Assembly (NCBI GenBank): GCA_026874595.1
Contig: CM049307.1
Span: 32,966,862 to 33,030,861, forward strand
Reading direction: 5' to 3'
Length of the DNA: 64,000 bases
Origin: Sipunculus nudus
Lineage: Eukaryota > Annelida > Sipuncula > Golfingiida > Sipunculidae
This document shows, piece after piece, positions 1,210 through 51,767 of this stretch (its first letter is position 1; every line of letters starts with the position of its first letter). The notes below the pieces were generated by a model, which ran no database searches, had not been told where the DNA came from, and saw nothing but the letters and a program-made list of their open reading frames with translations. A program made the position numbers and the translations under genes.

Positions 1210-2246
1210 CTAGAATATCAGCAGAAGCTGACAAAAGCCCTCAGCCAAAAGAACAGTGTTTAGAGGTGGTAACAGTAACAAGTACTAAATATCTGTTCTC
1301 ACATGGATGTATATCTGTACATGTCTCAGTTACAAATTTAAAATGGAGAGGTATGTACCATGATTCATAACAATCCACCAAATGCTTCCTGAAAAATAAG
1401 CTTCTAAGTTTTATTCTATTATCAGCTCTGTGACCTTGAAAAGTAGGTCAAGGTCACCCATCTTCGAACTTGACCGAGATTTTGTCGATATACATCTTCA
1501 CCAAAGAAATAAAATTCCTATTGTTAATCCTTTTAGAGATATCCCGCTCACAAGGCCAAAGTTGAAAAATCCAAGAAAAATTCATTAAAAATCAGAAATT
1601 GCAGGTGGCGCCCCCAAACTTGTGCAGCAGTTACAGACCATTACTCCCTATGATCATAGCAAGTATTGTGAAAATCCAGCCAATGGTTCCTGAGAAATAA
1701 GCTTCTAAATGTTTTTTCTATAATCAGCTCTAAAACGTAGAAAAATAGGTCAAGGTAACCCATCTTCGAACTTGACCGAGATTTTGTCAATATACATCTT
1801 CACCGAAAAAATAAAATTCCTACGGTGAATCCTTTTAGAGATATCCCGCTCACAAGCCCAAAGTTGAAAAATCCGATAAAAATTCATTAAAAATCAGATA
1901 TTGTAGGTGGCGCCACCAAACTTGTGTAGCAGGTACAGATTATCAGTCCCAATAATCATAGTGAGTTTTGTGAAAATCCACCAAATGGTTCCTGAGTAAT
2001 AAGCATCTAAGTGTTTTTCTATAATCAGCTCTAAAATGTAGAAAAATAGGTCAAGGTCACCCATCTTCGAACTTGACCGAGATTTTGTCGATATACATCT
2101 TTACCAAGGAAATAAAATTCTGACGGTGAATCCTTTTCAAGATATCCCGCTCACAAGGTAAAAGTTAACGGACGCCGGACGGACGGACGGACGGACGGAC
2201 AGCTTGGGTGACGACAATAGCCCATCAGCCTAAGGGCTAAGGGCTA
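1210..2246. mobile_element. Family A element, copy 1, inserted in the minisatellite
   Basis: Begins CTAGAATATCAGCAGAAGCTG, with AGCCCTCAGCC just inside, and ends in CATCAGCCTAAGGGCTA; other copies end GCTGAGGGCTA, so the termini are inverted repeats of AGCCCTCAGC. Inside are units of about 302 bp, each with a GGTGGCGCCACC-type palindrome (about 1604, 1906) and AGGTCAAGGTCACCC sites, then a GGACGGACGG tail (about 2170-2200). No protein is encoded. Non-autonomous DNA transposon is the most likely class. It shares body and ends with 24538-25211 and 33098-33751. Confidence 0.82.
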
Positions 2247-2620
2247 AAAAGTACACAGTAAGATGAGTACACTACTGTTATTTAAAAAGTACACACTGTG
2301 TAAGATGGGTACACTACTGTTATTTAAAAGGTACACAGTAAGATGGGTATACTACTGTTATATAAAAAGTACACAGTAAGATGGGTACACTACTGTTATT
2401 TAAAAAGTACAGAGTAAGATGGGTACACTACTGTTATTTAAAAGGTACACAGTAAGATGGGTTAACTACTGTTATTTAAAAAGTACACAGTAAGATGGGT
2501 GCACTACTGTTATTTAAAAAGTACACAGTAAGATGGGTTAACTACTGTTATTTAAAAAGTACACAGTAAGATGGGTGCACTACTGTTATTTAGAAGGTAC
2601 ACAGTAAGATGGGTACACTA
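2247..2620. repeat. 38-bp minisatellite, right block, abutting the exon donor
   Basis: About ten further copies of the same 38-bp unit, including variants GGGTTAACTACTG and GGGTGCACTACTG that alternate. The last copy runs GATGGGTACACTATTATAC straight into the exon; the donor GTATAATAGTG of the exon at 2627 is thus made of, or immediately joined to, repeat sequence. Confidence 0.92.
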
Positions 2621-2626
2621 TTATAC

Positions 2627-2706
2627 CTTGGTGTCCAGCACCGCCATAATTCTGTCTTTTGCCATGACAACAGCTTCTTTCTTCCCACAAACCTTAACAT
2701 GAGGGT
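2627..2706 (-). CDS. BICC1: BICC1 internal exon: end of the first KH unit
   Basis: An 80-bp exon on the minus strand encoding 27 codons once the single G from the previous exon is added: it begins DPHVKVCGKKEAVV and ends DRIMAVLDTK. Known animal Bicaudal-C proteins have DPHIKVSGKKED...IMSVLDTK at this place, just before the KH domain that carries the GKGG RNA-binding loop. The acceptor is a T-rich tract ending TTGTAG (2712-2707) and the donor is GTATAA (2626-2621). It enters in phase 1, joining G|AC to make Asp, and leaves in phase 0. BICC1 is a cytoplasmic KH/SAM protein that binds mRNAs and silences them, partly through the CCR4-NOT deadenylase. The segment should form the last strand and helix of the first KH fold. 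There is no GXXG loop within it. The donor-side intron is a minisatellite. Confidence 0.94.
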
Positions 2707-3035
2707 CTACAAAAAAACAGAGCAATTCATTAAGAACATTATTATTAATGAATAAGAAATTTTGTGAAAAATTCTGTGAAATATAAGAGCACACACAACC
2801 ATATTTTACAAACATATGTCACTGCACAGACTTGTACTTCTTTTGACTTACAGTAGTCTCATATCTAGCGGTGGCTACATGAAACCAACAGCTCAAAATA
2901 ATAACATTTAAATTATTTACTTCTCATCTGGTACATTACAGGAGAAATCAAATAAATGCTGGTATCTCACTTAATTCAATCCTGAAAGTAAGCTCTTCCT
3001 GAAACCAAAAATTTACAAACATTTATTGAGGATAT

Positions 3036-3051
3036 GGGGGGGGGGGGGGGG
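3036..3051 (+). repeat. Poly-G run, 16 bases
   Basis: Uninterrupted G16 followed by AGGGAGG in otherwise AT-rich intron. A matching run of C11 is at 3389-3399. Confidence 0.95.
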
Positions 3052-4805
3052 AGGGAGGAATGTGAATATTTTTAATGAACTCTTTTGTTCTAGATACTTG
3101 GATATACTTCAGTATTCTTGATTTAATATAGCTGCTTATTAGCAGCAGAATGAAAAGAAATATGTTACCACACAGTTAAAGGGTAAAATACCTACGAGAA
3201 TTATGAATATTTAAGACAAGACTTTGATTTTAATAGTTATAATTTTCTCTTACACAGTTTAAGCAATTTCAAGATAATGTCAAACATTTAAAAAGAGTCC
3301 CCTTCTTTATCATTTTTCCCTAATCCCCCTGATATATAACATCAAATGAAAATCCAGAATCTTCAACCTTGAACCAAGCCCAAGGACACCCCCCCCCCCT
3401 TCCTTCATCTATGATTACTATGACTACCCCTAGAGATTTCTATAATTTACACTGAATACACACCCTCTACTGAAGTCTTCATTTTTTTATGTCCACACCC
3501 ACGCACAGATGAAGGTGTTTACTCATCTAGGATTAACATGGCCATGTGACCACATTTCCTGTGGGGTGAAGTCTGCCCTTGTCAATTTGTTATTTTAGGC
3601 TGCGGGAGGTGAGAACTCAGCAAATAATACATACAAGATTCCTACTCTGAACCTGTCATAAACAGAAGGCTCAACTCAAGAGCCTCCCCTCATATAAAGA
3701 TTCACAGCAAAAGGTGCTAGCTATCTTCAGTTACAATATTATCATTTAATCTCTTTCTTGAAAATGTGTTATTTGATTTTCTAAACCAGTATATGTGCAC
3801 CGACCTGCTGGAAAACTGATTTCCTGCAAAAAAATCTTTAAATTTCAAGAAGTGTCCAATGGGTTATGATGCTCAGCTTTATTACATTTTTACATGACTT
3901 TCGGGTAAACCCAGAATATACAGCCCTGTTTTCTGAAAACAAATTCATTAATTTATTAAAAGATTTAATTTAAATTAAAAGTTAAGATTAAAGAATGTAT
4001 TGACTTTTATTCTTCAATTCACCAAAATATCCATCTAGGACAGGATTTATACAAGTGAATTTAATCATAATTTATCAGTTTACGCTGAAAAGTCTATACA
4101 CTGATCATATCCTTAATTTTTTTGCGTTGCTATTACAGTCTTAATATGAATTCAACTGCATTTACTAAATCTACAAAGGATTTTGACTAAAACTTAAATA
4201 CTTCTTTTACTGATGATCAGGAGAACACAGGCAGGAGGTAACTGATCTAAGATATCACTGTGAGCTGACAGAGCCCAAACCCGCAGGCCCAGCCAAAACA
4301 ACATGCCAAGGGGCAAAGGTAAAGGGGTAGCAATTTCTCATGAACAAACAAACCAGGTTTACATGTTACAGTTCAACAGCCAGTCAGTACTACAAACAAC
4401 TACATTTACTCCTCAAGGGCACTGGGTCTGTTATGCTGGACAATGTTAATTTATCAAAATTCAACCCCAACCATACAAGATTTCTTAAGCTGCTCTTATT
4501 TTGAAGGATAACTGAGAAAATTTGTAATGGTTGTTCCTCATGTAATGCTTAGTTTTTTTTAATCCAAACCGCCTCTGGCAAATACTAATTCTAAAATTAT
4601 AGTTCTTATAAAGTAATTTATTATTTTTTTTATCTCAGGGAACCAAGACCTGAAAAAAGTGTTGTCAGGTGAAGTGTAAAGTGTTTACATGATAATTTTG
4701 CTCTTTTCAGGGACTACACATTTGAAAACTCCAAATATTTTTATGCAACTCCCCACTTTGGATCTAATAGCAGAATAAAAAAATATCACAAAAAGACCTA
4801 TACTG
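3052..4805. other. Unique intronic sequence
   Basis: AT-rich sequence with one C11 run and a slightly GC-richer patch near 4245-4335. No coding region, repeat family or regulatory site could be supported. Confidence 0.55.
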
Positions 4806-5235
4806 CTTTTAAAACAAGGGACCTATGGGTCACGACGCTCAGCTGTTATATATGATAAAAAATATTATTTAGAAATGAGGCACATGCTGGTTTTGTGTGG
4901 TAATAAATATAAGCTGTATTATGAGTTGTTGTTGTTTAGCTTATGTATGATTTTGATAGTACCTTTGGAGACAGGGAAGAGGATTGATTTCATTTATTCT
5001 ATTAACAATTGGAGTACTATTGTCACACAGATTTTGACTTGGCCATACAACTTATAAGCAGAACATATAATATAAGGGTTTAACTATTTATTAAAAATTT
5101 ACAAATATTGTCCCAAATATAATTTTTATTAAAAATAATAAGAGAATCATATGATTTTTTAAAATGAAATATAACTGATATGATTATTAAAATAATATTA
5201 AAGAATATATTCATGAATGCATTCATGAATACATT
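4806..5235. repeat. Family F interspersed repeat, copy 1
   Basis: Opens with GGGACCTATGGGTCACGACG and CTCAGCTG, the 5' signature also used by the elements at 13308, 13604 and 36833. The body (TTTTGTGTGGTAATA, CTTTGGAGACAGGGAAGAGG, GACTTGGCCATA) is shared with 63497-64000 at moderate divergence and in the same orientation. It ends in very AT-rich sequence containing a 24-bp palindrome at 5208-5231. No coding potential was recognised. Confidence 0.75.
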
Positions 5236-6039
5236 TTGAAAGTATTTGCACGAGTATTCATATACTTTCATTTTTACCTGAATTCCCATTCTTTATGCAA
5301 GAAATTTTATAATGGAGTACATAATCATATTCGTATTTAAATACAATTACAAAGTATTCGCACCATGTCTGGTATTTATTCAATTTTCACCAAACAATGA
5401 TGTTGAGAATCCAGAATATACAAAATTCACACATTTAAATAATGATCATAAGTACCTGGTTTTATGGCTTTTATTTATATTAAAAAATAACTGTAAAAAA
5501 TTCATTTTGGACTAATTTCACATCAATGTACACACTAGACACAGTAGGAATCTAGATTAATATTATGAACTGCATCTTTGTCTATCATTAATTTCCTTCA
5601 CATGATCCCTAATGATTAGTAATGAATAATATGATTTTCTTCTTTATCATTAAAATTGAACTGAAAAATGCCATAGGTGACTGCATGGTGTTATTTGGAA
5701 TATGTGACATTCTACCCATCGATACAAGATTCTTATATCATCAGTAACTGCAAGTTAATTTCCTGTTATTATAAACTAACAAATTCCTTTTCTATTTTTC
5801 TTTAATTTGTTATTAAAAACCAATAAAAATTTATTAATTTGTTGTTTATTGTTATGTTGTTGGTTAAAACTACTAGATGAGTTGGGTTGGACACCTGGAT
5901 CAACTGTGGCTGGCCATAAGCTGCCTGGATTCCTGTATGCCTCGCCTCAAGCGTGCATAATTTGATGAAAGGTCAACAAGGTCAACATACAGGTGACTCA
6001 AGAGGGGCTGGAGAGAGCCAAAGTCTGACAGGGTCTCAT
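5236..6039. other. AT-rich intron, left flank of family G
   Basis: Mostly unique. From about 5875 the sequence becomes GC-richer (GGACACCTGGATCAACTG, GGTCAACAAGGTCAACATAC) and may be the unrecognised 5' part of the G element. No gene was seen. Confidence 0.45.
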
Positions 6040-9585: not shown

Positions 9586-11974
9586 GTTCACTCTGTGAAT
9601 TACTGTGCAATTTGGCAAGTGATTAAAAAATAAATGAATGTGAAAATACCATTCATTCCTTTCCAAGTAAACATTGTCCTATTGCACAAGGTCGGTGGCG
9701 TCACCTATATGGTTTATGAGAAAACTTTCCAAGATGACTGCACATGCCAAATTTCAGACCAATACTCCTGAGATATGAGCAATTTTCACCAAAAGCAAAT
9801 GTATGAATGGACACCACAGGAAAATTATTGCAGATGGCGCCACCAGTCTTGTTTACGAGATTGAGGTGACGAAGATCTATGGACATGCACAATTTCAACC
9901 CAATACACTGAACAAACACTAAGACGATCAGATGGCAAATGCAAAGTTGGACACTCCGCAAAAAGTAGTGTAGGTGGCGCAACCTGTCTGGTTAACGAGA
10001 AAACTTTCCTAGATGGATAGACATGACAAATTTCAGATCAATACATTGAACCACTTCTGAGATATGAGCAATTTTCACCCACAGCAAATGTACCAGGGAT
10101 GCCATGGGAAAACAATTGCAGATGGCATCATCAGTCTTGAGTGTAAGTCTGAGGAGTCCAAGATCTATGAATATGCAAAATTTCAGCTAAATATGTTGAA
10201 CCACTCCTGAGATTGAGGGTTGTTATATAAAAGAAACCCAGGTTTGTACTGCACAGAAAGGTTCTCCATCATTGTTACCTTCAACTACATAGGTGAGGGA
10301 ACAAGTATGCCAGGTTTTGGAAATATCAGTCCAAGGGTCCTAGAGGAGACTCTGTTTTTGTGGATTATAACAAATAAATACTTAATGACATATTTTGGAT
10401 AAAAGCAGAAAACACCATTACAGCCTGCTGAAAGTAGCTAAACAGGTGGCACCACCTGGAGGTCAAAATCATTAAGCAGTCACATGATCAATATTCCTGT
10501 GAAATTTGAAACTGAAGGCTGCAGCAGTTTCTAAGATATTTGGTAACAGACAATACATCCTGTATGGAAACACATCAAGTTGCTAAATTTTGCAACCCAC
10601 ACAATTTGAAGTTCTGTAGAGACGCCATCTTGAAAATGACTTGACTGAATTTATACTCAAATTATTCCACTTCCTCTAAGGAACTGTTGGCTATGATATG
10701 AAGGCCAAAATTTCAATACTTTGTGACTTATCTTGAAAGACGTGGAAAAGAACATTTTGTCCCACAGAAAGTAGGTCAACACAGCTGGCGCCACCTGGAG
10801 GTCAAAATCATCTGGCAGTCACATGATCAATATTCCTGTGAAATTTGAAACTGAAGGCTGCAGCAGTTTCTAAGATATTTGGTAACAGACAATACATCAT
10901 GTATAGAAACACATCAAGCTGTCATATTTTGCGATCGACAGAATTTGAAGTTCCGTAGAGACGCCATCTTGAATATGACTTGACTGAATTTATACTCAAA
11001 TTATTCCCCTTCCTCTAAGGAACTGTTGGCTATGATATGAAGGCCAAAATTTCAATACTTTGTGACTTATCTTGGAAGAAGTGGAAAAGACCATTTTTTC
11101 CCGCAGAAAGTAGGTCAACACAGGTGGCGCCACCTGGAGGTCAAAATCATCTGGCAGTCACATGATCAATATTCCTGTGAAATTTGAAACTGAAGGCTGC
11201 AGCAGTTCCGAAAATATTTGGTAACAGACAATGCATCCTGTATGGAAACACATCAAGTTGCTAAATTTTGCAACCCACACAATTTGAAGTTCTGTAGAGA
11301 CGCCATCTTGAAAATGATTTGACTGAATTTATACTCAAATTATTCCCCTTCCTCTAAGGAACTGTTGGCTATGATATGAAGGCCAAAATTTCAATACTTT
11401 GTGACTTATCTTGGAAGAAGTGGAAAAGACCATTTTTTCCCGCAGAAAGTAGGTCAACACAGGTGGCGCCATCTGGAGGTCAAAATCATCTGGCAGTCAT
11501 ATGATCAATATTCCTGTGAAATTTGAAACTGAAGGCTGCAGCAGTTTCTAAGATATTTGGTAACAGACAATACATCATGTGTAGAAACACATCAAGCTGT
11601 CATATTTTGCGATCGACAGAATTTGAAGTTCCGTAGAGACGCCATCTTGAATATGACTTGACTGAATTTATACTCAAATTATTCCCCTTCCTCTAAGGAA
11701 CTGTTGACTATGATATGAAGGCCAAAATATTAATACTTTATGACTTATCTTGAAAGAAGTCGAAAAGACCATTTCTTCCCGCAGAAAGTAGGTCAACATA
11801 GGTGGCGCCACCAAAAGCTTATTTTTGCATGTCCATCCCATGATCAGTATTTCTGCAAAGTTTCATGAAGGTAGCTGCTTTGGCTGTTGAGATATTTGGT
11901 AACAGACGGTGGACGGTGGACAGTTGACAGTGGACAGTGGACGCTGCGCCATGGCATAAGTTCACAGAGTGAAC
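9586..11974. mobile_element. Family H element, 2.4 kb, with terminal inverted repeats
   Basis: Terminal inverted repeats GTTCACTCTGTGAA (9586-9599) and TTCACAGAGTGAAC (11961-11974), with TAAT directly outside each end as a possible 4-bp target duplication. The left third holds two 280-bp units (palindrome at about 9693 and 9973, a second one inside each unit). The right part holds four 339-bp units, then a GGTGGAC/AGTGGAC-rich tail (about 11907-11944). Phrases such as GAGATATGAGCAATTTTCACC recur. There is no coding capacity; it looks like a non-autonomous DNA transposon with a tandem core. Confidence 0.82.
10445..11800. repeat. Four tandem 339-bp units inside H
   Basis: Units start at GGTGGCGCCACC or a variant at 10445, 10785, 11123 and 11462; a partial unit follows at 11801. 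Units 1 and 3 share GCTAAATTTTGCAACCCACA, units 2 and 4 share GTCATATTTTGCGATCGACA, so the array is a duplicated two-unit block of about 678 bp. Confidence 0.92.
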
Positions 11975-15899: not shown

Positions 15900-16147
15900 A
15901 ATTTAGTATCTCAGGTGGACCCACCTGCAATATGATCAATCTGCATACCCAAGTAAATAATGAATTTCATAATTGTGTATATAAGTTTCATACCCTCAGC
16001 TAGCCCTAACAGATAAATCAACCTTACTCAAATCAGTAAAGAAATAAAGGAGAGGTAGCTGTTTGTGTGGATGGCAGACAGATTGATGGACACCTGTCAC
16101 CCCATCACCATGGCATAAGCTCCCTGGGCCTTTGACTGGATGAGCTA
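15900..16147. mobile_element. Decayed single-unit element related to H
   Basis: Contains CAGGTGGACCCACCTG, a two-base variant of the GGTGGCGCCACC core, next to CAATATGATCAATCTGCAT. It closes with GATGGCAGACAGATTGATGG and ACCATGGCATAAGCTCCCTG, echoing the GGACGCTGCGCCATGGCATA end of element H. It looks like an old one-unit copy. Confidence 0.45.
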
Positions 16148-21475: not shown

Positions 21476-21635
21476 GTATCCCCAGACATAGGAGGCCCCC
21501 CCCCCCCTTTAAGAACAGACCCCCAATTTTGGCAGCATATACTGACACTTGGCATATTTATTGTTTCTTCCATCTAACAATCCACAATCTTGTTGAAGAT
21601 GTTGGTCCTGTGATCTTGATTGTTTTAAAGATGTG

Positions 21636-23420
21636 TCCTGTGACCTTGACCTTTGACCTCATGACCCCAAAATCAATTTGGGTCTTGCTTTTCCAATGGG
21701 ACATATGCAAGTCAAGTTTGAAATCTATATATCAATAAAGCAGGAATTATCATCCAAAAACTAATTTTTTTTGACAGGTGGCTCCTGTGACCTTCACCTT
21801 TGACCTTGTGACCTCACAATTGATAGTGTTCTTCCTCTCTTGGCAGGAGAACTATATGTGCAAGATGAAAGATCTGAGATGAAATGTTTGGCTGAAAATG
21901 CATCCACATCTTTTTAAAGATGTGTCCTGTGACCTTGACCTTTGACCTCATGACCCCAAAATCAATTTGGGTCTTGCTTTTCCAATGGGACATATACAAG
22001 TCAAGTTTGAAATCCATACATCAATAAAAGCAGGAATTATCATCCAGAAACTAATTTTTGGACAGATGGCTCCTGTGACCTTCACCTTTGACCTTGTGAC
22101 CTCAAAATTGATAGGGGTCTTCCACTCTTGGCAGGTGAACTGTATGTGCAAGATGAAAGATCTCAGATGATTTTTTTGGCTGAAATTGCATCCACAACCT
22201 TTATAAAGAGGTTTCCTGTGACCTTGACCTTTGACCTCATGACCCCAAAATCAATTCGGGTCTTGCTTTTCCAATGGGTCAAATACAGGTCAAGTTTGAA
22301 ATCCATACATCAATAAAAGAAGGAATTATCATCCAGAAACTAATTTTTGGACAGATGGCTCCTGTGACCTTCACCTTTGACCTTGTGACCTCAAAATTGA
22401 TAGGGGTCTTCCACTCTTGGCAGGTGAACTATATGTGCAAAATGAAAGATCTCAGATGAATTTTTTGGCTGAAATTGCATCCACAACCTTTTTAAAGATG
22501 TATCCTGTGACCTTGACCTTTGACCTCATGACCCCAAAATCAATTTTGGTCTTGCTTTTCCAATGGGTCAAATACAAGTCAAGTTTGAAAACCACACATC
22601 AATAAAAGCAGGAATTATCATCCAGAAACTAATTTTTGGACAGATGGCTCCTGTGACCTTCACCTTTGACCTTGTGACCTCACAATTGATAGGGTTCTTC
22701 CTCTCTTGGCAGGTGAACTATATGTGCAAGATGAAAGATCTGAGATGAAATGTTTGGCTGAAAATGCATCCACATCTTTTTAAAGATGTGTCCTGTGACC
22801 TTGACCTTTGACCTCATGACCCCAAAATCAATTTGGGTCTTGCTTTTCCAATGGGACATATACAAGTCAAGTTTGAAATCCATACATCAATAAAAGCAGG
22901 AATTATCATCCAGAAACTAATTTTTGGACAGATGGCTCCTGTGACCTTCACCTTTGACCTTGTGACCTCAAAATTGATAGGGGTCTTCCACTCTTGGCAG
23001 GTGAACTATATGTGCAAGATGAAAGATCTCAGATGAATTTTTTGGCTGAAATTGCATCCACAACCTTTTTAAAGATGTGTCCTGTGACCTTGACCTTTGA
23101 CCTCATGACCCCAAAATTAATTCAGGTCTTGCTTTTCCAATGGGTCAAATACAAGTCAAGTTTGAAATCCATACATCAATAAAAGAAGGAATTATCATCC
23201 AGAAACTAATTTTTGGACAGATAGCTCCTGTGGCCTTGACCTTTGACCTTGTGACCCCAAAATTTCTATGGATCATCCACTATTGGCAAGTGAGCTATAT
23301 ATTCAAGATGGAAGACCTGGGATGAAAGTTTGGCTTAAAATGCATCCACAGTATATTTTAAAATGCCAGTCCAGTGACCTTGACCTTTGACCTCATGACC
23401 CTAGAACCTATCGGGTTCTT
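21636..23420. repeat. About six tandem 289-bp units in E
   Basis: Clusters of TGACCTTGACCTTTGACC start at 21641, 21930, 22219, 22508, 22796, 23085 and (diverged) 23375, giving spacings of 288-290. A second cluster, TGACCTTCACCTTTGACC, lies about 147 bp after the first, so each unit is itself an old dimer of about 145-bp monomers. Units at 21930 and 22796 and those at 22219 and 23085 pair up by shared variants, showing a recent duplication of about 866 bp. Confidence 0.94.
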
Positions 23421-23992
23421 ACTTTAGTGGTGGGCCATACATAAGTCATGTTTGAAATCTATATGGCTATCAACACTGGAGATATCATAAGAGGAGTGTG
23501 ATTTTCACCATATATGGCAATATTCAAGGTCAAGGCCACTAACATAGGAAAGGTCATGACCCCAATTTAAATAACCATCATCCCATAACCCATACCTATG
23601 TATATGCATAATATAAAAGAAATCTGTCCATTAGTTTTTGACTTATAATGCTCACAGTACTGTAAGGTGGCAATCTTGGGAGTATTAAACGGCATGAAAA
23701 CAAGTAAAGAATAATAGGTGGCGCCACCAGTTTCTGGAACATGACAACCCTATCCATGATCTTCCATCAACTTGATTTTAGGATAAACCTATGCAAGATT
23801 TCTTGAGATATTAAAGAATTTGTGTGATTTTCCCAAAAATTGGACCTATTCAAGGTCAAGGACACTCTCCTAGTAAAGGTCATGACCTCATTTTAAATAG
23901 GCGTCGTCCTCTTACCCATATCTATATATATACCAAGTTTGGTAAAGTTCCGTGAAATATTTTTTGGGTTATCGCGCCAACAAGATTTATAT

Positions 23993-24537: not shown

Positions 24538-25211
24538 CTAGAATATTAGCAAAAGCTGATAATCAGTTATAAATTTAAATTGGAGAGGTATGTACCATGT
24601 TTCATAACAATTCACCAAATGCTTCCTGAGAAATAAGCTCCTAAGTTTTTTTCTATACCAAGCTCTGCGACCTTGAAAATAGGTCAAGATCACCCATCTT
24701 TGAACTTGACCAAGATTTTGTAAATATAATGCAATAGCACTGTAGTAATGAAGTTCCTGTGTTGAATACCTTTGGAGATATCCTGCACAAAAGGCCAAAA
24801 TTGAAAAATCTGATAAAATTTCATTAAAAAATCAGAAATTGCAGGTGGCGCCACCAAAATTGTGCAGCACGTACAGACCATCAGTCCCAATGATCATAGT
24901 AAGTTTTGTGAAAATCCACACAATGGTTCTTGAGATATAAGCTTCTGAGTGTTTTTCTATAATCAGCTCTAAAATGTAGAAAAATGGGTCAAGGTCACCC
25001 ATCTTCGAACTTAATCTCGATTTTATCGATATACTTCTTCACTGATGAAATAAAATTCGAATATTGAATCCTTTTATAGAAATCCCGCTCACAAGGTAAA
25101 ATTTAACAGACGCGGAACGGACGGACGGACACCGGACAGACAGATGGACGGACTGATAGACGGACAGCTTGGGTGACGACAATAGCCCATCAGCCTATGA
25201 GCTGAGGGCTA
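24538..25211. mobile_element. Family A element, copy 2, nested in B
   Basis: CTAGAATATTAGCAAAAGCT at the left, GCTGAGGGCTA at the right. It contains a perfect GGTGGCGCCACC (24844-24855), GGTCAAGGTCACCC, and a GGACGGACGG tail near 25117-25165. The flanking B sequence reads across the insertion in an A-rich stretch (GCATTGCGAAA ... AAAAGG). Confidence 0.85.
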
Positions 25212-25214
25212 AAA

Positions 25215-26300
25215 AGGCTGTACATGTACATTTGTCATGAAAATTTATATTTTTCATGATATTTTCTATGTTTAGGAGCCGTAAAACAATCAAAAGTAGG
25301 TCGACCAGGACAAAATGTGAACTCAATCTGTAACTGGTCATTATCTGCCCACACACCAAAAATCAGGCCAATTTCTGCAGGCATTGTGAACAAAAGTCCG
25401 TACATGTGTCTTTGTCATGAAAATTTCTATTTTTCATGAAAATTTCTATGTTAAGGAGCCATAAAACGGTCAAAAGTAGGTCAACCGGGACGAAACGCGA
25501 ACTTGATCTTTAACTAGTCAATATCTGTATACACACCAAAAATCAGGCCAATATCTGCAGGCATTGCGAACAAAAAACCGTACATGTGTATTTGTCATGA
25601 AAATTTCTATTTTTCATGAAATTTTCTATGTTTAGGAGCCATTAAACAGTCAAAAGTAGGTCAACTGGAACGAAACGCGAACTCGATCTGTAACTAGTCA
25701 ATATCTGCATACACACCAAAAATCAGGCCAATATCTGCAGGAATTGCGAACAAAAGTCCGTACATGTGTATTTGTCATGAAAATTTCTATTTTTCATGAA
25801 ATTTTCTAAGTTAAGGAGCCATAAAACGGTCAAAAGTAGGTCAACCAGGAAGAAACAAGAACTCGATCTGTAACTGGTTATTATCTGCACACACACCAAA
25901 AATCAGGCCAATATCTGCAGGCAATGGGAAAAAAATCCGTACATGTGTATTTGTCATGAAAATTTCTCTTTTTCATGAAATTTTCTACATTAGGAGCCGT
26001 AAAACAGTCAAAAATAGGTCAACCAGGAAGAAACAAGAACTCGATCTGTAACTGGTTATTATCTGCACACAAACCAAAAATCAGGCCAATATCTGCAGGC
26101 ATTGGGAAAAAAAATCCGTACATGTGTATTTGTCATGAAAATTTCTATTTTTCATGAAATTTTCTAAGTTTAGGAGCCGTAAAACAGTCAAAAATAGGTC
26201 AACCAGGACGAAACACGAACTCGATCTGTAACTGGTCATTATCTGCCCACACACAAAAAATCAGGCCAATATCTGCAGGCATTGTGAAAAAAAGTCCGTA
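25215..26300. repeat. Six tandem 180-bp units of B
   Basis: AATCAGGCCA recurs at 25361, 25541, 25721, 25901, 26079 and 26259, a 178-180-bp period. Units differ by few substitutions. 180 is a multiple of three, yet no frame stays open through several units, so it is not coding. Confidence 0.94.
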
Positions 26301-26312
26301 CATGTCCGGCAT

Positions 26313-32544: not shown

Positions 32545-32597
32545 ACTAGATGTGTCGGAATGACATGAATGCCCCCGCCTGCAGCAAATTAGAAATA

Positions 32598-33097: not shown

Positions 33098-33751
33098 CTA
33101 GAATATAAGCAAGAGCTGATAATCAGTTATAAATTTAAATTGGAGAGGTATGTACCATGTTTCATAACAATCCACCAAATGCTTCCTGAGAAATAAGCTC
33201 CTAAGATTTTTTCTATACTAAGCTCTGCGACCTTGAAAATAGGTCAAGATCACCCATCTTTGAACTTGACCAAGATTTTGTAAATATCATGCAATAGCAC
33301 TGTAGAAATGAAGTTCCTGTGTTGAATATCTTTGGAGATATCCTGTACAAAAGGCCAAAATTGAAAAATCCGATAAAAATTCATTAAAAAATCAGAAATT
33401 GTAGGTGGTGCCACCAAAATTGTACAGCACGTACAGACCATCATTCCAAATAATCATAGTAAGTTTTGTGAATATCCACTCAATGGTTCCTGAGATATAA
33501 GCTTCTGAGTGTTTTTCTATAATCAGCTCTAAAATGTAGAAAAATGGGTCAAGGTCACCCATCTTTGAACTTGACTGAGATCTTATCGATATACATCTTC
33601 ACTGATGAAATAAAATTCCAACGGTGAATCCTTTTAGAGATATCCTGCTCACAAGGTAAAAGTTAACAGACGACGGATGGACGCCGGACAGACGGACGGA
33701 CGGACAGCTTGGGGGACAACAATAGCCCATCAGCCTATTAGCTGAGGGCTA
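33098..33751. mobile_element. Family A element, copy 3, nested in B
   Basis: CTAGAATATAAGCAAGAGCT ... GCTGAGGGCTA, very similar to copy 2 and in the same place of the host element. It contains GGTGGTGCCACC, GGTCAAGGTCACCC and a GGACGGACGGACAGC tail. Confidence 0.85.
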
Positions 33752-36215: not shown

Positions 36216-38625
36216 TACGGTAGTCACTTGTATCTGCCTAAATCAGAGTGGTACTGACGAAGTGAGGCATGGATTGATTTTAAGGGGAAATATATTGTCA
36301 TGTGTTATATATAAGCTTGGATGTCTGCCACGTAAACATGACTGTATGTGGCGCCACCTGTCATTTGAACAAGAAAACTATCTTAGATGTATACAAATGC
36401 TGAATTTCAGTGTTCAAATTTGACCAAGCTCTATGACATGGTATGGTGATTTGGTGCACAAATGTAGCAGATTTTGCAACTGTATCTCAAACATTTTACA
36501 AGTTATTGCATTAACTTTATTTAAGCAATATTACTGGTTTACTTCAAGGTCATCAGTGTTCCAACTTGATCTAACACTTTGATAAGGTGCATCAATGTTG
36601 CAGGTTTGGAGACTGTACCTCTAATTGTTTTTGAGTTATTGCATTAACTTCATTTTAGCCTTATTGCTGCTGTGACCTCGAAAAATGCTTCAAGTTCATC
36701 TGTATTCTAACATGACCTAGCACTTTATAAGGTGCATAAATGGTGCAAGTTTGGTGCCTTTATCTCAAATTCTTGTCCAGTTATTGCTTTAACGTCATTT
36801 TTATCATTACTGCCGCTGTGACCTTGATCTAGGGACCCATGGTCCTCAACGTTCAGCTGAATTTGTCTAGAAGGAAATTTTTTTTTATTTCAGGATGACA
36901 GTCCTGTGACTTTAATCAATGACCTTGTGACCAAAAAATCTTAGAACTTATTATCCTTGAACTTGCAGCATTTAGATTATTGTAACAATCTTAAAAAAAG
37001 TGACCTTGGTAACCTCAAAATCTACAGATCTCCTAACATTGGGCAAGTAAGCCATGTGTGAAAGATGGAAAGTTCGGGATGATAAGTTGGATTTACAGTG
37101 CATCCAAAATCTTTTTGAAGATGCTCCTCCTGTGACCTTCAACTTTGATCTCTTGACCCTGAAAATCAAAATGAATTTACTTGAGTGGTGGGCCATTATT
37201 AAATCACGTTTGAAGCCAATCTGTCAAACCAAAGCATAATTATCATCCATAAACTAATTTGTGAATGGACTGGCCCTGTGACCTTGACCGTTGACCCTAT
37301 GACCCCAAAATCAAACAGAATCTTCCCCTATTGGCAGGTTAGCAATATCTTGAAGATGGAAGTTTTGCGATGAAAAGTTTGGCTTCAAATGCATACACAT
37401 TCTTTTTAAGAAAGGATTCCTGTGACCTTGACCTTTATCCACTGGACCTCAAAATCAACATGGTTCGATCTTACTGAAGTGGTGAGCAATATATGAGTTA
37501 ACTTTGAAACTAATATGTCAAACTGTGCTGGAGTTATCATCTGGAAACTAATTTTTGAACTGATTGCAACTGTGACCTGGACGTTTGACCTTGTGACCCC
37601 AAATTCATTTATGCTCTCCCCATATTGGCAAGTCAGCCAAATGCCCAAGATGGATAGTTTGGGAGGAAAAGCTTGGCTTAAAACACAGCAATAATCTTTT
37701 AAATAAATGAGTCCTGTAACCTTGACCTTTGACCTTGTGACCCCATAATCATATAGGTTCTTGCTTTAGTGGTGGGCCATATGTAAGTCAAGTTTGAAAT
37801 CCATGTGTCAATCCAACCTGGAGTTATCATCTGGAAACACATTTTAATGGATGGACAGATGGACAGACAGACAGCTAGAAAAACAGACAGACAGACAGGG
37901 TGATTACTATAGGGTATCCACTTGTGATCAATTAACACACCAGGTTTAGGGAGACTAGATGTAATCACAGCTGAGAAACTGACAGGATTGTTGTCATTTT
38001 ATAGTAAAAAAATAGAAAAATATTCGTTAAAATTTAAAAAAATACAGGTTGCACCACCACTTTTCAGGAACTGACAAAACTACTTATGGTCAATATTCAA
38101 GGCAAGATTCATGACAATCAATGCATTGATTATCAAGATATTGGAGGTTTGGTATCAAATTTTTTATTATTATGGGGGGTACTTCAAGCCCCATAGCTCA
38201 GAGAATATAGATGGCAGTGACCTTTTTCAGGTTTCCAAGGAAATTTTTTTTTTATCTCTCTGGATGTTCACTTAAAAGTTTCCATGACCAGCAGTTACGA
38301 TTTGTGCCCTGCTAACAGACGGCTGGACGGCCGGACGACCAGACGGCCAGATGCTCGGACGGACAAAGCGCCATTCTTATACCTCAGTTGACTTACATTC
38401 TTTTCAAGTTATTGCATTTACATCATTTTAGCATTATCGCCGCTGTGACCTGATAAAGGGTGGTGCCACCTGTGTAGAGAGGAAAGGTCAGAGGTCAACC
38501 CAAAATGAGGGTGCAGCAGTTGCCATGTGACCTGATCATAATTCTGCGTTTCGTTAAATTCCTTCCAGTGGTTCCAGAAACCTATGGGGCGACAGGGGAG
38601 CTGGCGTCCAGCTGAAAACACATTA
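36216..38625. mobile_element. Family J element, copy 1, split by a K element
   Basis: Shares its start (GAAGTGAGGCAT, AGCTTGGATGTCTGC, TGGCGCCACCTGTCAT) and its end (AGAGGAAAGGTCAGAGGTCA, GAGGGTGCAGCAGTT, CTGAAAACACATTATC) with 48895-49940. In the middle it has units of about 130-145 bp with GTTATTGCATTAACTTCATT and CTGCTGTGACCT. The J sequence stops at about 36832 and resumes at about 38397 in the same kind of unit, the gap being element K. Confidence 0.7.
36833..38396. mobile_element. Family K array inserted in J
   Basis: Starts GGGACCCATGGTCCTCAACG then TTCAGCTGA. It contains diverged units related to those of element E (CCTGTGACCTTGACCTTTGACC, GGAAACTAATTTTTGAAC, GGCAAGTCAGCC), a GACAGACAG tail near 37855-37900, then a second part like 50905-51767 (GGTTGCACCACC, GGTCAATATTCAAGGCAAG), and ends near GGACGGACAAAGCGCCATTC, TACCTCAGTTGACTTACA. 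It may be two adjacent elements rather than one. Confidence 0.62.
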
Positions 38626-40329: not shown

Positions 40330-41520
40330 CATGTTATCAATTATTTCTTCAATTAGGCCAATTGACCTATCCACTACAGCCCAAATGCTCCACCCTTTCA
40401 AATTAATTATTATGCCGAGACACAAAAACACTCCTACAGAGAAGGTCTTCCATGCCCATGGTAGAGAGAGCTGCTTGCAGCATAAAAATGACATCACAAA
40501 GGTCGCATTGACTGAGATCATCAACTGGTATCGCTGTCCTCTATTGATGAATATATTGCAGTCATTGAGAACTATTTGCAATATTTTGGATTATTGATCT
40601 CATACAAATTACTTGCAAGTTGAGCCATTATTTGCTTGGTGTCAGAGAAATGGCTCCTGCACCTATAGCCTAGAACTTTTTATACTACTCCTTTGAATGA
40701 AACTAGATGTGTCGGAACGACACAAATGCCCCCCTTGGAGCAAATTAGAAATATTTGTTAAAGTTTGTATAATTTTCTATGCTCAGAAGCTGTCATACGG
40801 TCAAAAGTAGGTAAACCAGGACAAAATGTGAACTCAACCTGTAAGTGGTCATTCTGCTGCAACATACCAAAAATCAGGACAATACCTGCAGGCATTACAA
40901 AAAAAAAGTCCATACATGTGCATTTGTCTGGTAAATTTCTATTTTTCCATGAAATTTTCCTACGTTCAGGAGCTGTCATACATTCAAAAGTAGGTCAACC
41001 AGGACAAAATGCAAACTCAATCTGTAAGTGGTCATTTTGCTGCCATGCACCAAAAATCAAGCTAATATCCGCAGGAATTGCAAAAAAAGTTGGTAAAGGT
41101 GCATTTATAATGAAAATTTCAATTTTCATGAAATTTTCTATGTTCAGGAGCCGTCATATGGTAAAAAGTAGGTCAACCGGGACAAAAAGTGAACTTGATC
41201 TGTAAGTGGTCAGTTTGCTGCCACACACCAAAAATTAGGCTAAAATCTATGGGCATTGCGAAATAAAGTCTGTACATGTGCATTTATCATGAAAATTTCT
41301 ATTTTTCATGAAATTTTCTATGATCAGGAGCAGTCATACAGTCAAAAGTAGGTAAACAGGGACAAAATGCAAACTTGATCTGTATGTGTTTGTAGGATGA
41401 TTGATGCTTTACAATGTTTACAGTCACCTGATTGGTTGCTTGTTAGACCAATGCTTTTTTTTATACATATCACATAGAGTTCATGGACTGGTCAATTACA
41501 AGTAAATCTTTAAAAACTAA
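40330..41520. repeat. Family D repeat, copy 2, split by a B element
   Basis: The left part (40344-40695) and the right part (41391-41460, GTCACCTGATTGGTTGCTTG) correspond to 8640-9310, where they are separated only by about 110 bp of ordinary sequence. The B element between them is therefore a later insertion. Confidence 0.75.
40702..41388. mobile_element. Family B element, copy 3, right end missing
   Basis: ACTAGATGTGTCGGAACGAC start, then ATGCCCCCCTTGGAGC and about four 180-bp units. It lacks both the nested A element and the MITE, so it gives the empty-site sequences for both. The right inverted end is missing; the sequence breaks off inside a unit after AAACTTGATCTGTATG. Confidence 0.82.
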
Positions 41521-45044: not shown

Positions 45045-45050
45045 CCTCAC

Positions 45051-45094: not shown

Positions 45095-45100
45095 CTAAAA

Positions 45101-48100
45101 GTACAGGACATACATATGGTAAACATGATAGAACAAACTAGAACATAATCATCTTCATATGACACAGTTATGGTCATACTGAAGTTCCAGTCAAATGTAA
45201 GACAATGGTCAACTATGAGGCACCCACAATGAAGAGCCTTGTTATCCGGAATACACAATCACGAAGAAACTCAGCAAGAGCCTAAACCAGTTCTGCTATA
45301 ATACCTAAACATGTTTTGACCTGGATTAATCTATAAGTAAACCTCACCACTTACATGTTAAGATATAATTATGTTCATCATGGACACCATTCAAAGTGAG
45401 CCCTCCTAGCTAAAAGATGTCACACAGATATATTCTACTGAAAAGTTTTCCATGGGCCACAAGGATCAGCTGAATATTCTTATCATCTGTTAAGCTTTCA
45501 AATTAGAGGTTAAATCTGACTAAAATTATAAATTTGCTTTACAAACAGACAAATTTTAGAAGACAATAACACAAACAGTGATCATTATACATGTTCATTA
45601 GAAGGCTTTCTGGGTTCACAACAAATCAAAACATTTACCAAATAAAGTACTGAGATATGGTGCAAACACAAGTCAATAATATAGTCTACTTATTTTACAG
45701 TCAAAATTGAAGGTAACTTCTAATAAATTAGATCAATAATGGTTCACTAATAAATTTTATAAGCATAAACATGGCACAAGGATTAAAGGTATTCTATAGT
45801 ACTGCACAAAAAGGCGTCTTCTTCAAAAGTGGAACAAAGTATAAAACCATTTTAAATTTTATACAAAAATACCCAAAACCAACAAATTCTGTTTAAGATT
45901 AATAAAGGTTACAATATGTTCTCAGCCAGTGACCATGTGATAAAATCTGAAATTCCAAATCTCCCTTAATTTTCCCCCTTGTTTTCACTTGTGCCTGAAC
46001 TCCTTGCATTTATAACCTTACAAAAATATTAACCTTGTTTCATTTACAGGAGAAATAAGTTAATACTGTCAGTTATTCATCACTAATAAGATAAACCTAT
46101 TGCAAAATCACCGTTCATTCAGAAATATGCAATCACCATCTGAGAGTGGCACCAGAGTACATAAAAGTGTTTATAAACTTTACATCACAGTAATAAAATT
46201 TTCATATGTTGAGTCTACATAGTATGGAACAGCCATTTTACATTGATATACTGCGGAGCTGACAAACAACCCATCAAACACTGCCACTTTTTTCAGGTTA
46301 ATGTTACTTTTTTCACTCTCAGCAATAAACATCCATGCGCAAATCATCACCCCTTGCATCTCAGTCTGTTAAAATAGAAGAAGTCTATACAGTATTAATA
46401 AAACAGCCTCAGCAATGACATCCATATGGCACCCTGTCTAATTCCCTGAATGACACAGGATCTTTTCATTTCCTCTCTGCGGTGAAGGAAAATGGTTTGT
46501 TTACAGCTTACAATAATACACAGGCAAGGGACAGGGTAGTGTACATAGCCTCCTGTCAGAAGCTGAGCTAAGGAGCTGAATGTATCACATATCTACAGGC
46601 ATGTTAGGAGTCTTGTTCTGTCCACCAGGAATATGGCATCCCATGTAATTTGAAGGACTCGAATACATCTGGAGTGCAGGCATTGCTTAAAACCTGCCAC
46701 AGATCACTCAGATTTAATCATTAACATATTTTTGCCATTTAAACATAAAAAGCTCATTCACACGTGTGCATAAAAATAAACTTTCATTGCAAATAGCTTA
46801 AAAATATTTTAAGGAACATGTTTAGGTCTAAAAGCATTTCATTTGTGTTACTCATATGATAATCTGTGAAAACCTCCCCAGGTAAACATGTGAATACTTA
46901 ATAAACAGTTGCCTGTACTGAGGTGTACCTCAGTCACAAATGCTTACTTGCTTGCAATTTACCTTTACTTCAGAAAATTAACAAAATGGTTATTTCTCTT
47001 AACTGCTAATGAGTACCTTGATTTCTTGGTCATTCAATCCAAGGTACGTGGCACCTTATATATGTGATAAAAGCAATGATTCCTTTTACAAGTTTACATG
47101 TGTTTATATTTAAACACTTTTTTAATTTAACAATAAATATTACTTATCATCTTTTATTATCAGCATAATCTTGTGGAAGTTTCATATTAGGCTTATTTAT
47201 ATAAAAGACACATTACAAATAGAGAACAATATCTCCTGAGTGTCTAGAGTGTGACATGTCTAAGTGACAACTTTATTTAAGTGGCTTCCAGGTCATACAT
47301 TTCAATCAACCAAATTCAAGTGCACACTTTCTTATGTGGTTTCATAATTTCACTGAAAGCTTAACAGATAGTTTACCAATGAATTATAACCATGCTACGT
47401 ACAGGATCCATAAGATCAACTTTCACTAAGTGAAAGTTCACAAATGGTTAAAAAGAGGAGTCCTTTGGAATGCAACATTTTAATTACTTGTGCCAAGCAT
47501 TTCCCCCTTCAGCCCTGTGTTAGTCCAGGAATGCTATATGTGAGTCATGTACCGTAAATGGAACGTGCTCATTGATAACATGTCCTTGATGTTTCTAGGT
47601 ACTGAGACCTTGTGGACAAAAGACCATCTGTGACCATGTCAAATAGAATTGGATGGTCATACATTCTGGCAGAGTTGTCTGGTTGACTCTGTTCAAACAG
47701 TCACCATGTCTGCCTGCCACTAAATAAATATCCAGTTTGTATACAATGACGCAGCAACCGATGACCTTAAAAGGTCAACATGGCAGGATTCCACATCGGA
47801 ATTGCATTTAATCAAACTACAAAGAAACACACCTAAATATACTGTGGAACTCTGAATTCATTACATTTTTTAGTATGTATCTCAAACATGTCAATGAATC
47901 AACATATTAAAAGCTAGACTCAAGGTTTAAAAGTTTGATTTGTATATACCTTCACTTTCATACACAACAATATGCCCTAAAATTATTCAACAAATGAAAC
48001 AATATATATTTTATCATATACCTGTAACTAGAAGTTTTCTGAGTTAACTACCCGCATTCAAAGAAAAAATATATATTTTTTTATCTTATTAAATCTCTGA

Positions 48101-48894
48101 ATTCCATCATTACTATATCTTATCCTTTCGTGTTTATACACTATCTGTATGTAATTTCATTGCTTTTATTCATCTTCCAAGACAGTCAATTTAAACTGCT
48201 TTATCCTGTATTTAAAATTTTCACATGAACCCTGTATGCGTTAATGCTTTGTTTTGCACAAAGACATAGAGTGTGTTGAAGTATGATAAAATACCAAAAG
48301 GAATTTTATACACAGGCCAAAGAGTGGACCCAACAAAAGGGTTGTTAACAATCCTTCTGACCAAGCTTGGGTAACATGAGTTGTTTTAAAACAAAACAAG
48401 GTTGAAATAATGTAAATCACTTATATTGATGGTAAGATGTCTCCTATTCGACTGACAGTTATTGTGATATCCTGACACCATTTATTGATTCTCCAACAGC
48501 ACTGGACACTTAAAAGAGTTTTTTTTCAACAAAATTCATTTAAACAAATGGTGTCTGCCAGCAGTTAAACAGATCACTACCACCAACACAGAGGCTGCAA
48601 GAGCCCTGTTCCTTATTTTAACACTGAAGCTTTTATAAAAATTCCCTCAATGGATAATGTAAGACAGATTTGGGAATCACATTTTTAGGAACATGAATGG
48701 CCCTCCTTTCCCCAACATGAGAGGGTTACAGCAGTTTTATGGCATGGTCTACTTGAAGTTTCAGTGACTGTTTCCTTTTGCATGCCACAGTGGGGATACT
48801 TCTACTTAAGAAAGTGATTTATTTAACTACACTCAGTACCAGCCTAAGAGCAGGTTAAAAGACACTCTGCTGGCTACATACAGACTTTCTGTGA
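45101..48894. other. Repeat-poor intron with GC-richer patch
   Basis: No repeat family was recognised over 3.8 kb. 46390-46720 is GC-richer and contains TTTGTTTACAG, a perfect forkhead-type TGTTTAC, and other non-repetitive sequence; it is a possible regulatory region. No sequence encoding the RFRVDRKKLE helix of BICC1 was found. Confidence 0.45.
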
Positions 48895-49940
48895 AATACA
48901 GATAGTTTATACCAACCCGGTGAAGTGAGGCATTGAGTGGCAAGGGGAAATAGAGTGAGGTGTGTTGCATAATAGCCTCGATGTCTGCAGCCGAAATGTG
49001 TATGTAGGTTGCGCCACCTACCACAAAATCCAGAAAGCTGTCCAATGCAAAATTTTAGGCAGATAAGTCACACCACTACTGAGATATGAGTTATTTTAGC
49101 CCACGGCAGACAAACAGACGGACGCTGTGCAAAAATGGTGGCAGGTGGCACTACCAGTTTTGCGTATGATAAAGAGCTATGTGAGATCTATAAACATGCA
49201 AAATTTTTGTCCAATCAGTCAAATGGTTCCTGAGATATGAGCTTGGATGTCTACAGCGTAAATTTGAATGTAGGTGGCGCCATCTGTCATAAAACAAGAA
49301 AGCTGTCAAGGGTGTATAAACCTGCAAAATTTCAGGTGGATAAGTCAAACCACTGCCGAGATATGAGTGATTTTATTCCGAGGCAGATAAACAGATGGAC
49401 GCTGTGCAAAAATGGTTGTAGGTGGCACCACTAGTTTTGTGTATGATAAAGAGCTATGTGAGATCTATACACATGCAAAATTTTGGCCCAATCGGTACGG
49501 TTCCCAAGATATGAGCTTGGATGTCTGCAGCTTTAAAGTGAATGTAGGTGGTGCCACCTGTCATAAAATCAAGAAAGCTGTCCGGGATGTATACACATGC
49601 AAAATTTCAGGTGGATAAGTCCAACCAATCCAGAGATATGAGTGTTTTTATCCAAGGGCAGATGAACAGATGGACGCTGTGCAAAAATAGTTGCAGGTGG
49701 CGCCACCATTTTTAGTGTATGTTATAAAGCTTTCCAAGGGCCACATTAGTGCAAAATCTTTAGCCTGGGCAGAGAGGAAAGGTCAGAGGTCAACCAAAAA
49801 TGAGGGCGCAGCAGTTCACATGTGACCGATCATAATTCCGAATTTTAAAAAATTCTGCCCGGTGGTTATGGAGGAGTTCTCCGGAAACCTATGCGGCGAT
49901 GGCAGCATCGTTGGCGTCAGACTGAAAACATAGTATCTGC
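48895..49940. mobile_element. Family J element, copy 2
   Basis: Starts near TACAGATAGTTTATACC and ends near CATAGTATCTGC, a weak inverted pair. It contains alternating monomers of about 125-150 bp: one type has GCGCCACCTGTCATAAAA and AGAAAGCTGTCC, the other GGCACCACTAGTTTTGTG and AAGAGCTATGTGAGATCTAT. GGTGGCGCCACC is perfect at 49696 and nearly so at 49273 and 49546. Phrases AGATATGAGCTTGGATGTCT and CAGATGGACGCTGTGCAAAA recur. Non-coding. Confidence 0.8.
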
Positions 49941-50467
49941 AAAACTCTGCAATCTGCCAATGGTAAACCAAGTGCTGCCATCTGTACACAAAAATGGTCC
50001 CTACTTGAAATAACTTTGAAATTTATTTTCCAAATACAAAAGGCTTTTCAGCTGACTTTTTATAAAAAAGAAATCAGGAATATATGTATAATTATTATGG
50101 ATGCATACTGAATGCAAAATTAAAATACAGATATATCTCATTGATGGCAAATTCTTGAATTAAGTTTAGTAGGGATACCAATAATTTATAATCCATTAAC
50201 AGTTGTCTTTATATACCCACAGAGAGCTGAATAACCATAATTAGAACATTGCCTGGTATGATGAATAACTTAAATCATAAATCTAATTTTTTTAAAAGCT
50301 TTTAAAAAAACTTTCTTGTCAATATTAACCAAAGATAACCTCAAATCTAAATGTCTAGTGTCATGAATTAATAGATCCTGATAAACTGGTGCCAGGCTAG
50401 GTGTAACAGCATCACACAGCAAACATATATGGTAAAATGACTTTATTCAATCTCCATAATTCAGCCA
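49941..50467. other. Unique intronic sequence
   Basis: AT-rich sequence between J and the B fragment. Nothing was recognised. Confidence 0.5.
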
Positions 50468-50744
50468 AAAAATTTGCGAAAAAAAGTATGTACATGTGTA
50501 TTTGTCATGAAAATTTCTATTTTTCATGAAATTTTCTAAGTTTAGTAGCCATAAAACGGTCAAAAGTAGGTCAACTGGGACGAAACGCAAACCTGATCTG
50601 TAACTGGTCATTATCTGCGCACACACCAAAAATCAGGTTAATATCTGCAGGCATTGCGAAAAAAAGTCCGTACAACTGTTTGATGACGGAAGGACGGACA
50701 TGGGTAAAACTATATGCCCCGGCCACTTTGTGGCGGGGGCATAA
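50468..50744. mobile_element. Family B fragment, right end only
   Basis: One and a half 180-bp units followed by the intact right terminus (GACGGAAGGACGGACATGGG, ATGCCCCGGCCACTTTGTGG, CGGGGGCATAA). The left part is missing. Confidence 0.83.
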
Positions 50745-50905
50745 AAATCCGATATGGTTTTTTGGATGACTGATTATTTGCAAAAAATTTGATGCTAGCT
50801 CCTGCCGTTTTTGAGAAAGCTGTGGTAAACCTACAGACGACGCACGACACACGATGCACTACACACGACGCCGCACCATCGCATGAGCTCACAGGTTCGC
50901 TAAAA
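50745..50905. mobile_element. Tail of another element
   Basis: A degenerate GACGCACGACACACGATGCA tract followed by CATGAGCTCACAGGTTCGCT and AAAAA has the layout of the other tails (repeat tract, then terminal motif), but no complete relative is in the window. Confidence 0.45.
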
Positions 50906-51767
50906 ACACTTAATGGTCAATATCCATGCAAAGAATCATGGTGATCTCTGCATTAGTTGTTCAGATACTTCAGCTTTTGTATCAGGACTACTTCGGAGTC
51001 CTATAGCTTGAAGGATATGGGTAACAGAGACCTAATTTCAGGTTTCCACAGACACTTTTCATGGGCCTCCTTGCATGACAAGAATGAAGATTCCAGGTCC
51101 AGCTGTTACAATTGGTGCCACGTTAACAGATGACAGCATCCTTAAAGGTCTCAAAAATAGAGAAATAAATTTGAAAAATTGAATAAAATATAGGTGGCAG
51201 CACCAGTCTACAGAAAATGATGAAACACTCCATAATCAATATCCATGCAAAGAATCATGGTGATCTCTTCATTAGTTGTTCAGATACTTCAGCTTTTTTA
51301 TCAGATTTTCCATGGTATTTTGGAGTGCCATAGCTCAAAGGATATGGGTAACAGAGATCTGATTTCTGGTTTCCATGGAGACTTTTCATAGGTCTCTCAG
51401 TCTGTCAACAATGAAGATTCTAGGTCTAGTCGTTACGATTTGTGCCCTGTTAACAGATGTTCATATTTTTAAAGGTCTCAAAAATAAGAGAAAAAAATTC
51501 GTAAAAAATCGAAAAATACAGGTGGCGCCACCAGTCTGCAGGAACTGATGGAACATCTCATGAACAATATGATGCCAAAAATCATGACCATCAGTGATGT
51601 AGTTAATGAGATACTGAAGTTTTTGTATGAAATTTTTTTCTATTCTTGGCGGTTCTTTGGGGCCCAATAGCTAAAAGAATATGGGTAAAAGAGACCTAAT
51701 TTCTGGTTTCTAAGGAGATTTTTCATGGACCTCTCATAATGTCAAGTTACAAGTCAGCTGAGCTAAA
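50906..51767. mobile_element. K-type array with about 320-bp units
   Basis: ATCCATGCAAAGAATCATGG recurs at 50922 and 51241; GGTGGC-type palindromes at 51193 and, perfect, 51521. Each unit has CATAGCT(C/T)AAAGGATATGGG, GGTTTCCA and GACTTTTCATGG. It ends AAGTCAGCTGAGCTAAA. Related to 38030-38396. Confidence 0.75.

Follow-up and report, generated by a model that had tools for sequence, protein, structure and literature searches.

A candidate CTCF-type palindrome carried by several repeat families in the genome of Sipunculus nudus

Why should repeats that differ in ends and body have the same 12-bp palindrome in common? The question is raised by a stretch of 64,000 nucleotides from Sipunculus nudus (GenBank assembly GCA_026874595.1, contig CM049307.1, positions 32,966,862 to 33,030,861 of the forward strand), here called the window, where the palindrome GGTGGCGCCACC recurs within units of several repeat families. 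The original prediction, made from the window alone, had proposed a conserved binding site, a recombination or transposition signal, or common descent. The reading that we tentatively favour, with somewhat less than even confidence, is that of a CTCF-type binding site borne by non-autonomous repeats, among them at least one Helentron-like family; binding is inferred from the sequence.

The palindrome and the CTCF core

Exact copies lie at seven places in the window (1906, 11123, 11801, 23717, 24844, 49696 and 51521), all of which had been correctly named beforehand; 13 sites with one mismatch and 5 with two bear out the "over a dozen" variants announced with them, for a total of 25 at up to two mismatches. 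Since shuffling gave an expectation of 0.38 sites at this threshold, with a maximum of 3 among 100 shuffles, the claim that chance copies are improbable also holds. The genome-wide count that had been suggested as a check returned 111,757 exact copies versus 14 of the reversed pattern (1.43-Gb genome, 153 contigs), and 218,229 versus 575 at up to one mismatch. A random sample, consisting of twenty 6-kb stretches from 15 contigs chosen blind to the motif, contained 7 sites at up to one mismatch (1 exact) and 6 with two, against an average of 0.04 for 200 shuffled motifs at up to one mismatch. Chance as the origin of the palindrome is ruled out by these counts. The site at 15914 in the window clusters with no other, and is probably a chance match. 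Within open-licence full texts (figures and supplements excluded), the exact 12-mer occurred in one paper, and the inner 10-mer combined with "repeat" in three, all of them unrelated by title.

The human CTCF consensus is published as CCASYAGRKGGCRS, the core, YAGRKGGCRS, being its last ten positions (PMC6746451), and these are fitted by C/T-A-GGTGGCGC; the guide oligonucleotide for the CTCF site upstream of human EGR1 includes ACTAGGTGGCGCAG (PMC6344568). The neighbourhood of the palindrome was analyzed on 140 sampled sites (107 exact), to which contig C1 contributed 103 (99 exact), the window 25 and the random sample 12; the contig C1 sites derive from the regions around 99 of the first 100 exact places listed, all within the first 0.95 Mb of the contig. 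Without any orientation of the sites, C/T-A was found on the left of 103 of the 107 exact palindromes, on the right (other strand) of 33, and on at least one side of 105, where chance would give about 30%. Genome-wide, it is present at 71,858 + 71,901 = 143,759 of 223,514 ends of exact sites (64% versus 16%). An E-box (CAGGTG) as the sole target of the reader was ruled out, T-A being nearly as frequent upstream as C-A (45 versus 58 of 107).

Matches to YAGRKGGCRS fall mostly inside palindromes, both in the window (24 of 26) and in the 184 kb of motif-blind DNA formed by the window and the random sample (31 of 36; 4 for a reversed-pattern control). A core match on at least one strand was shown by 127 of the 140 sampled sites, which have 0 to 2 mismatches (contig C1, 100/103; window, 21/25; random sample, 6/12). 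The full consensus CCASYAGRKGGCRS occurs 2,601 + 2,709 = 5,310 times in the genome, versus 37 + 39 = 76 for its reversed form, an excess of about 70-fold. When 40 such sites were fetched, 27 resembled no other fetched DNA (E 0.001, a result that does not by itself prove single-copy status) and 13 did, so that the vertebrate-type CTCF motif is apparently present within repeats and outside them. Ten of the 13 repeat-like sites belong to a further family, with a full-consensus CCACTAGGGGGCGC-like sequence and common flanks, often ending ..aacatatca.

The human CTCF fingers are best matched by a single open frame, which lies on contig C11 and has 11 fingers (identity 56%, E value 4e-109); its top PDB matches are CTCF, and it is the CTCF orthologue. 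Two further finger matches were rejected as paralogues, as they look like ordinary zinc-finger proteins (the first three matches of the list were examined). The residues expected to contact bases (-1, 2, 3 and 6) are identical to the human ones in fingers 3-5 (12/12), match at 3 of 4 positions in finger 10, and at 1 or 2 of 4 in each of the other seven; finger 6 retains Q at -1 and finger 2 retains N at 6. Upstream of the fingers is VYDFKEE, the human counterpart of which is VYDFEEE; the VYDF stretch has a role in holding cohesin. A phmmer search with the pre-finger stretch gave no match at E up to 10. Among the matches listed, a large share of the C2H2 zinc-finger matches to the CTCF fingers lies at about 12-62 Mb of contig C16.

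The usual finger code assigns GGT-GGC-GCC to fingers 5, 4 and 3. Published contacts of fingers 4 and 5 are consistent with this reading, and finger 4 tolerates CpG, 5mCpG and CpA/TpG (PMC12264921). The conserved unit would thus be C/T-A-GGTGGCGCC-ACC, with fingers 5, 4 and 3 on GGT-GGC-GCC, finger 6 on the A just upstream and finger 2 on the A at position 10; CTCF would bind YAGGTGGCGCCACC. Because the 12-mer is palindromic, the match to fingers 5-4-3 exists on both strands and CTCF could dock either way, and one decay of the central CpG (to CA or TG) would leave GGTGGCACC on one strand. The orthologue is a candidate for the binding protein that had been called for, on the strength of its core fingers, and binding by it is a prediction. 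Such a site would account for the direction of the unit as well as for the core, the A upstream of it and the fingers.

Carrier repeats

The sites of the window are given below. The letters A, E, H, J and K were assigned here by position, as a guess at an earlier lettering that was left undefined.

1210..2245, + strand: family A element, with a short inverted repeat at the left end, 302-bp tandem units containing the palindrome, an ACGG microsatellite and a 3' hairpin; it sits in a 38-bp satellite
1604..1615, + strand: family A palindrome, one mismatch
1906..1917, + strand: family A palindrome, exact
9694..10133, + strand: family E, sites at 9694, 9833 and 9973 (each one mismatch) and a decayed one near 10122
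10445..11812, + strand: family H, 339-bp units, sites at 10445, 10784, 11123 (exact), 11462 and 11801 (exact)
23717..23728, + strand: exact palindrome of another dispersed family (average-linkage grouping, flank search)
24844..24855, + strand: family A copy, exact palindrome; 3' hairpin at 25183-25211
33404..33415, + strand: family A copy, CpG-decayed palindrome GGTGGTGCCACC; 3' hairpin at 33723-33751
36347..36358, + strand: palindrome with one mismatch, relative of family K
38047..38058, + strand: palindrome with two mismatches, relative of family J
38459..38470, + strand: palindrome with one mismatch; flank in common with the end of the K array
49007..49707, + strand: family K array of alternating units, sites at 49007, 49144, 49273, 49421, 49547 and 49696 (exact)
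51193..51532, + strand: family J, 327-bp units, sites at 51193 (two mismatches) and 51521 (exact)

The copies of site 23717 found elsewhere are 98-100% identical (40 best-scored of 507 candidates). No tandem array was reported around it in a tandem-repeat scan of the window, and the segments flanking it, 23496-23605 and 23822-23931, repeat each other. Other tandem repeats of the window (289 and about 180 bp; 21623-23401, 25212-26305 and 40771-41388) are without a site at up to two mismatches. At 63091-63171, 28-bp repeats and two hairpins are found in proximity.

The family A element at 1210..2245 splits the 38-bp satellite (670-1209 and 2245-2620), and the empty site can be read from the satellite unit; compared with this unit, the junctions read TTTAA joined to CTAGAATATC and GGGCT joined to AAAAAGTACACAG. 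This single clear insertion of the family is at a run of A. The 3' hairpin is common to three copies, with energies of -15.6 kcal/mol for this copy and -17.6 for each of the other two (RNA parameters). Central repeats, a microsatellite, a 3' palindrome and a T-rich target are marks of HINEs and Helentron-associated elements (PMC4067079, PMC7492417); the 3' hairpin, microsatellite and central repeats of family A suggest that it is Helentron-like (non-autonomous, HINE type). The HINE, DINE-1 and Helentron-associated elements resemble it in their central tandem units, a 4-base microsatellite, a 3' hairpin and an inverted repeat close to the left end, and insertion at T/A runs may be a further likeness; the passages describing them differ in mentioning no palindrome in the units (PMC4067079, PMC7492417), and the likeness concerns family A.

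The palindrome could also be a cis signal for movement or amplification of the repeats, acting in rolling-circle replication or in recombination between units, a possibility to which we assign a low probability. It does belong to the tandem units of an element whose ends are Helentron-like, and array size is variable, with 1 to 8 exact sites in each of the 52 arrays into which the first 100 listed exact sites fall; 37 of the 48 spacings below 400 bases are near 150, 130 or 335. A conserved palindrome is also described near the repeat junction of the clam element DTC84 (PMC5139131). In family A, however, the sole element with placed ends, the palindrome is inside the units and away from the termini; a loopless 12-bp palindrome is probably a poor hairpin; and the match to CTCF would be left unexplained.

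Conservation, decay and alternative readers

In order to define the families, the sites were oriented by C/T-A and grouped by their flanks. Average linkage was used because single linkage merged nearly all sites; it produced 28 groups, the three largest comprising 86 sites; about 10 to 12 of the groups are, in our judgement, real families. The palindrome is thus in several families, as had been proposed, but five was an undercount, and site 23717 falls in a separate group of its own. Eighteen representatives were kept, and 10 singletons (L012:3511, W:15914, L029:121, W:9973, W:49007, L014:4434, L096:116, W:9694, W:38459 and L067:116, where W is the window) were left out, being judged chance matches or stray members of other groups.

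Over the 18 representatives, each palindrome position carries 1.6 to 2.5 bits, whereas flank positions average 0.22 and do not exceed 0.75; this comparison is conditioned on the motif and excludes from the flank figure the five bases before and the three after the palindrome. The C/T-A columns of this alignment are circular, because the sites were oriented by them, and the unoriented counts given above apply instead. Three downstream boxes, all picked post hoc from the alignment, are found in several representatives: a GAGATAT-like box in 9 of 18 (shuffle mean 0.57, largest 4), AAAATTT in 9 (mean 2.53, largest 8) and CAATATT in 5 (mean 1.47, largest 5). The Pearl family, BIV160 and Cg170 satellites of bivalves, compared by their description, likewise are divergent unit families with short conserved boxes in common (PMC5139131).

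Motif-masked, flank-only models of six families were searched in the 184 kb of motif-blind DNA, the models having been built in part from the same window sites. Those of one family also find members of other groups. When 31 flank-defined copies were aligned over the motif, at least 10 of the 12 bases were kept in 27. Identity at non-CpG motif positions was 87.7%, versus 81.5% for the flanks (Wilcoxon p 0.006), and 86.0% over all 12 bases (p 0.018); in the 18 copies with flanks below 85% the figures were 81.7% for the motif versus 72.6%. For two families, flank searches returned copies 98-100% identical (best 40 candidates scored), hence too young for this test.

These comparisons bear on common descent alone, that is, one old repeat superfamily whose motif survived by chance, which we consider improbable. 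It is favoured by the downstream boxes, by the flank-only models that cross between groups, and by young copies, in which the motif is hardly better kept than the flanks; the bits per position and the excess in the 31 copies argue against it, and weaken shared ancestry without any constraint. Descent from common ancestors, as originally proposed, therefore stands in part, through the GAGATAT-like box, some families being distant relatives. Simple kinship of the families, with a motif no better preserved than its surroundings, had been named as the contrary outcome; half of this was found, as some families are related, yet between families the motif is far better kept in the motif-conditioned comparison. 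The excess in flank-defined copies is small. The proposal of a conserved binding site finds support in the sequence: the palindrome with upstream C/T-A equals the CTCF core, and the host has a CTCF with matching core fingers.

Several observations weigh against a CTCF-type site. In the 13 younger copies the motif is about 96% identical versus about 94% for the flanks (by subtraction). The CCA upstream in the full 14-bp consensus is missing in the palindromic repeats, which keep the core: its positions are mostly A, A/T and T in the 18 representatives. The third core base is T in 18/18 representatives (conditioned on the motif), never G in the 31 flank-defined copies, and G in 1 of 20 family J copies, where CTCF tolerates either base (27 G and 13 T in the 40 full-consensus sites). 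The exact palindrome is absent from all of these 20 J copies, which were retrieved through their right flank among the 40 best-scoring candidates; the central dinucleotide is TG in 12, CA in 7 and otherwise changed in 1, and YAGRKGGCRS is matched on either strand in 5 and on neither in 15. The common TG implies a subfamily that spread after damage to the motif. Finally, CTCF has no need for the 3' ACC, so that a single CTCF leaves the perfect palindrome unexplained. The CTCF-type reading alone thus fails to explain the perfect symmetry, the missing CCA and the spread of decayed subfamilies.

The central CpG is lost in 19 of the 20 J copies, in two subfamilies (TG and CA) that spread with a damaged motif. 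An intact motif would then be dispensable for spread, and any selection would act on spreading lineages, not on each inserted copy. Genome-wide, where C/T-A precedes the site on its left, the last base is lost more often than the first (7,936 vs 4,775), and decay of the CpG to CA, which keeps the left core, exceeds decay to TG (29,954 vs 25,912). Both biases run as a left-anchored reader predicts, but this is weak support, because the copies lack independence and a site that has C/T-A on either side of it is counted in both classes; the biases may also be founder effects, a further point against CTCF.

The symmetry could instead reflect a different, two-fold symmetric protein, a homodimer encoded by the host or by the elements, which reads the whole palindrome, the likeness to CTCF being coincidental or secondary. 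We regard this as unlikely, though worth serious attention. It would explain a perfect 12-bp symmetry in which all positions, those of the 3' ACC among them, are near-fixed in the 18 representatives (a set conditioned on the motif), and a third base almost without tolerance. It fits poorly with an upstream C/T-A that belongs to the conserved unit and gives it direction, with mutation frequencies that differ between the two ends, and with the CpG-decayed J subfamily, which breaks the symmetry too. Another symmetric candidate is the palindromic E2F site, TTTGGCGCCAAA, which has the inner TGGCGCCA in common with the palindrome. Its eight central bases agree, but the outer GG/CC (TT/AA for E2F) are conserved as strongly as the centre, and so is C/T-A; an E2F-type site is very improbable.

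If the CTCF-type site is correct, each repeat unit would supply one site; some of the carriers are distant relatives, and family A is Helentron-like. Lineages that retained the site would have spread better, for example through chromatin kept open or insulated in the germ line, and genome folding may be affected. A bolder proposal, which we think doubtful, is that selfish repeats evolved and kept, across diverged families, a palindromic and direction-neutral CTCF site, and that about 100,000 or more repeat-supplied cores may dominate CTCF/cohesin traffic. The tally behind this number is of at least 71,880 exact sites with C/T-A and 29,954 CA-decayed ones, versus 5,310 full-consensus sites.

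Comparison with known CTCF sites

On the reach of CTCF as a genome organiser beyond vertebrates, a review states that direct evidence is lacking for invertebrates, and cites a single cephalopod study to implicate loop extrusion in a spiralian (PMC10658181; related sources on CTCF outside vertebrates are PMC10658182 and PMC9023564). A testable prediction comes from the genome of S. nudus, which encodes a conserved CTCF and contains full-consensus sites by the thousand, besides about 100,000 palindromic cores located in repeats. Should CTCF bind the palindromes, no other source of such sites would be as large as the repeats, and the importance of motif direction could be tested on the palindrome; otherwise, the search would be for a different DNA reader, both abundant and strict.

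B2 SINEs are an example of CTCF sites borne by transposable elements. No motif is more common than that of CTCF in the open chromatin of an annelid (PMC7854359), and a CTCF-type motif is likewise abundant in that spiralian genome; there it lies in open chromatin, for the most part at promoters, and occurs singly, whereas here it is in repeats and identified by sequence. In rodents and other mammals (PMC7520972), as proposed here, a mobile repeat family multiplies a CTCF core. The present case differs from these mammalian sites in that the core is part of a perfect palindrome, placed in the tandem units of several repeat families.

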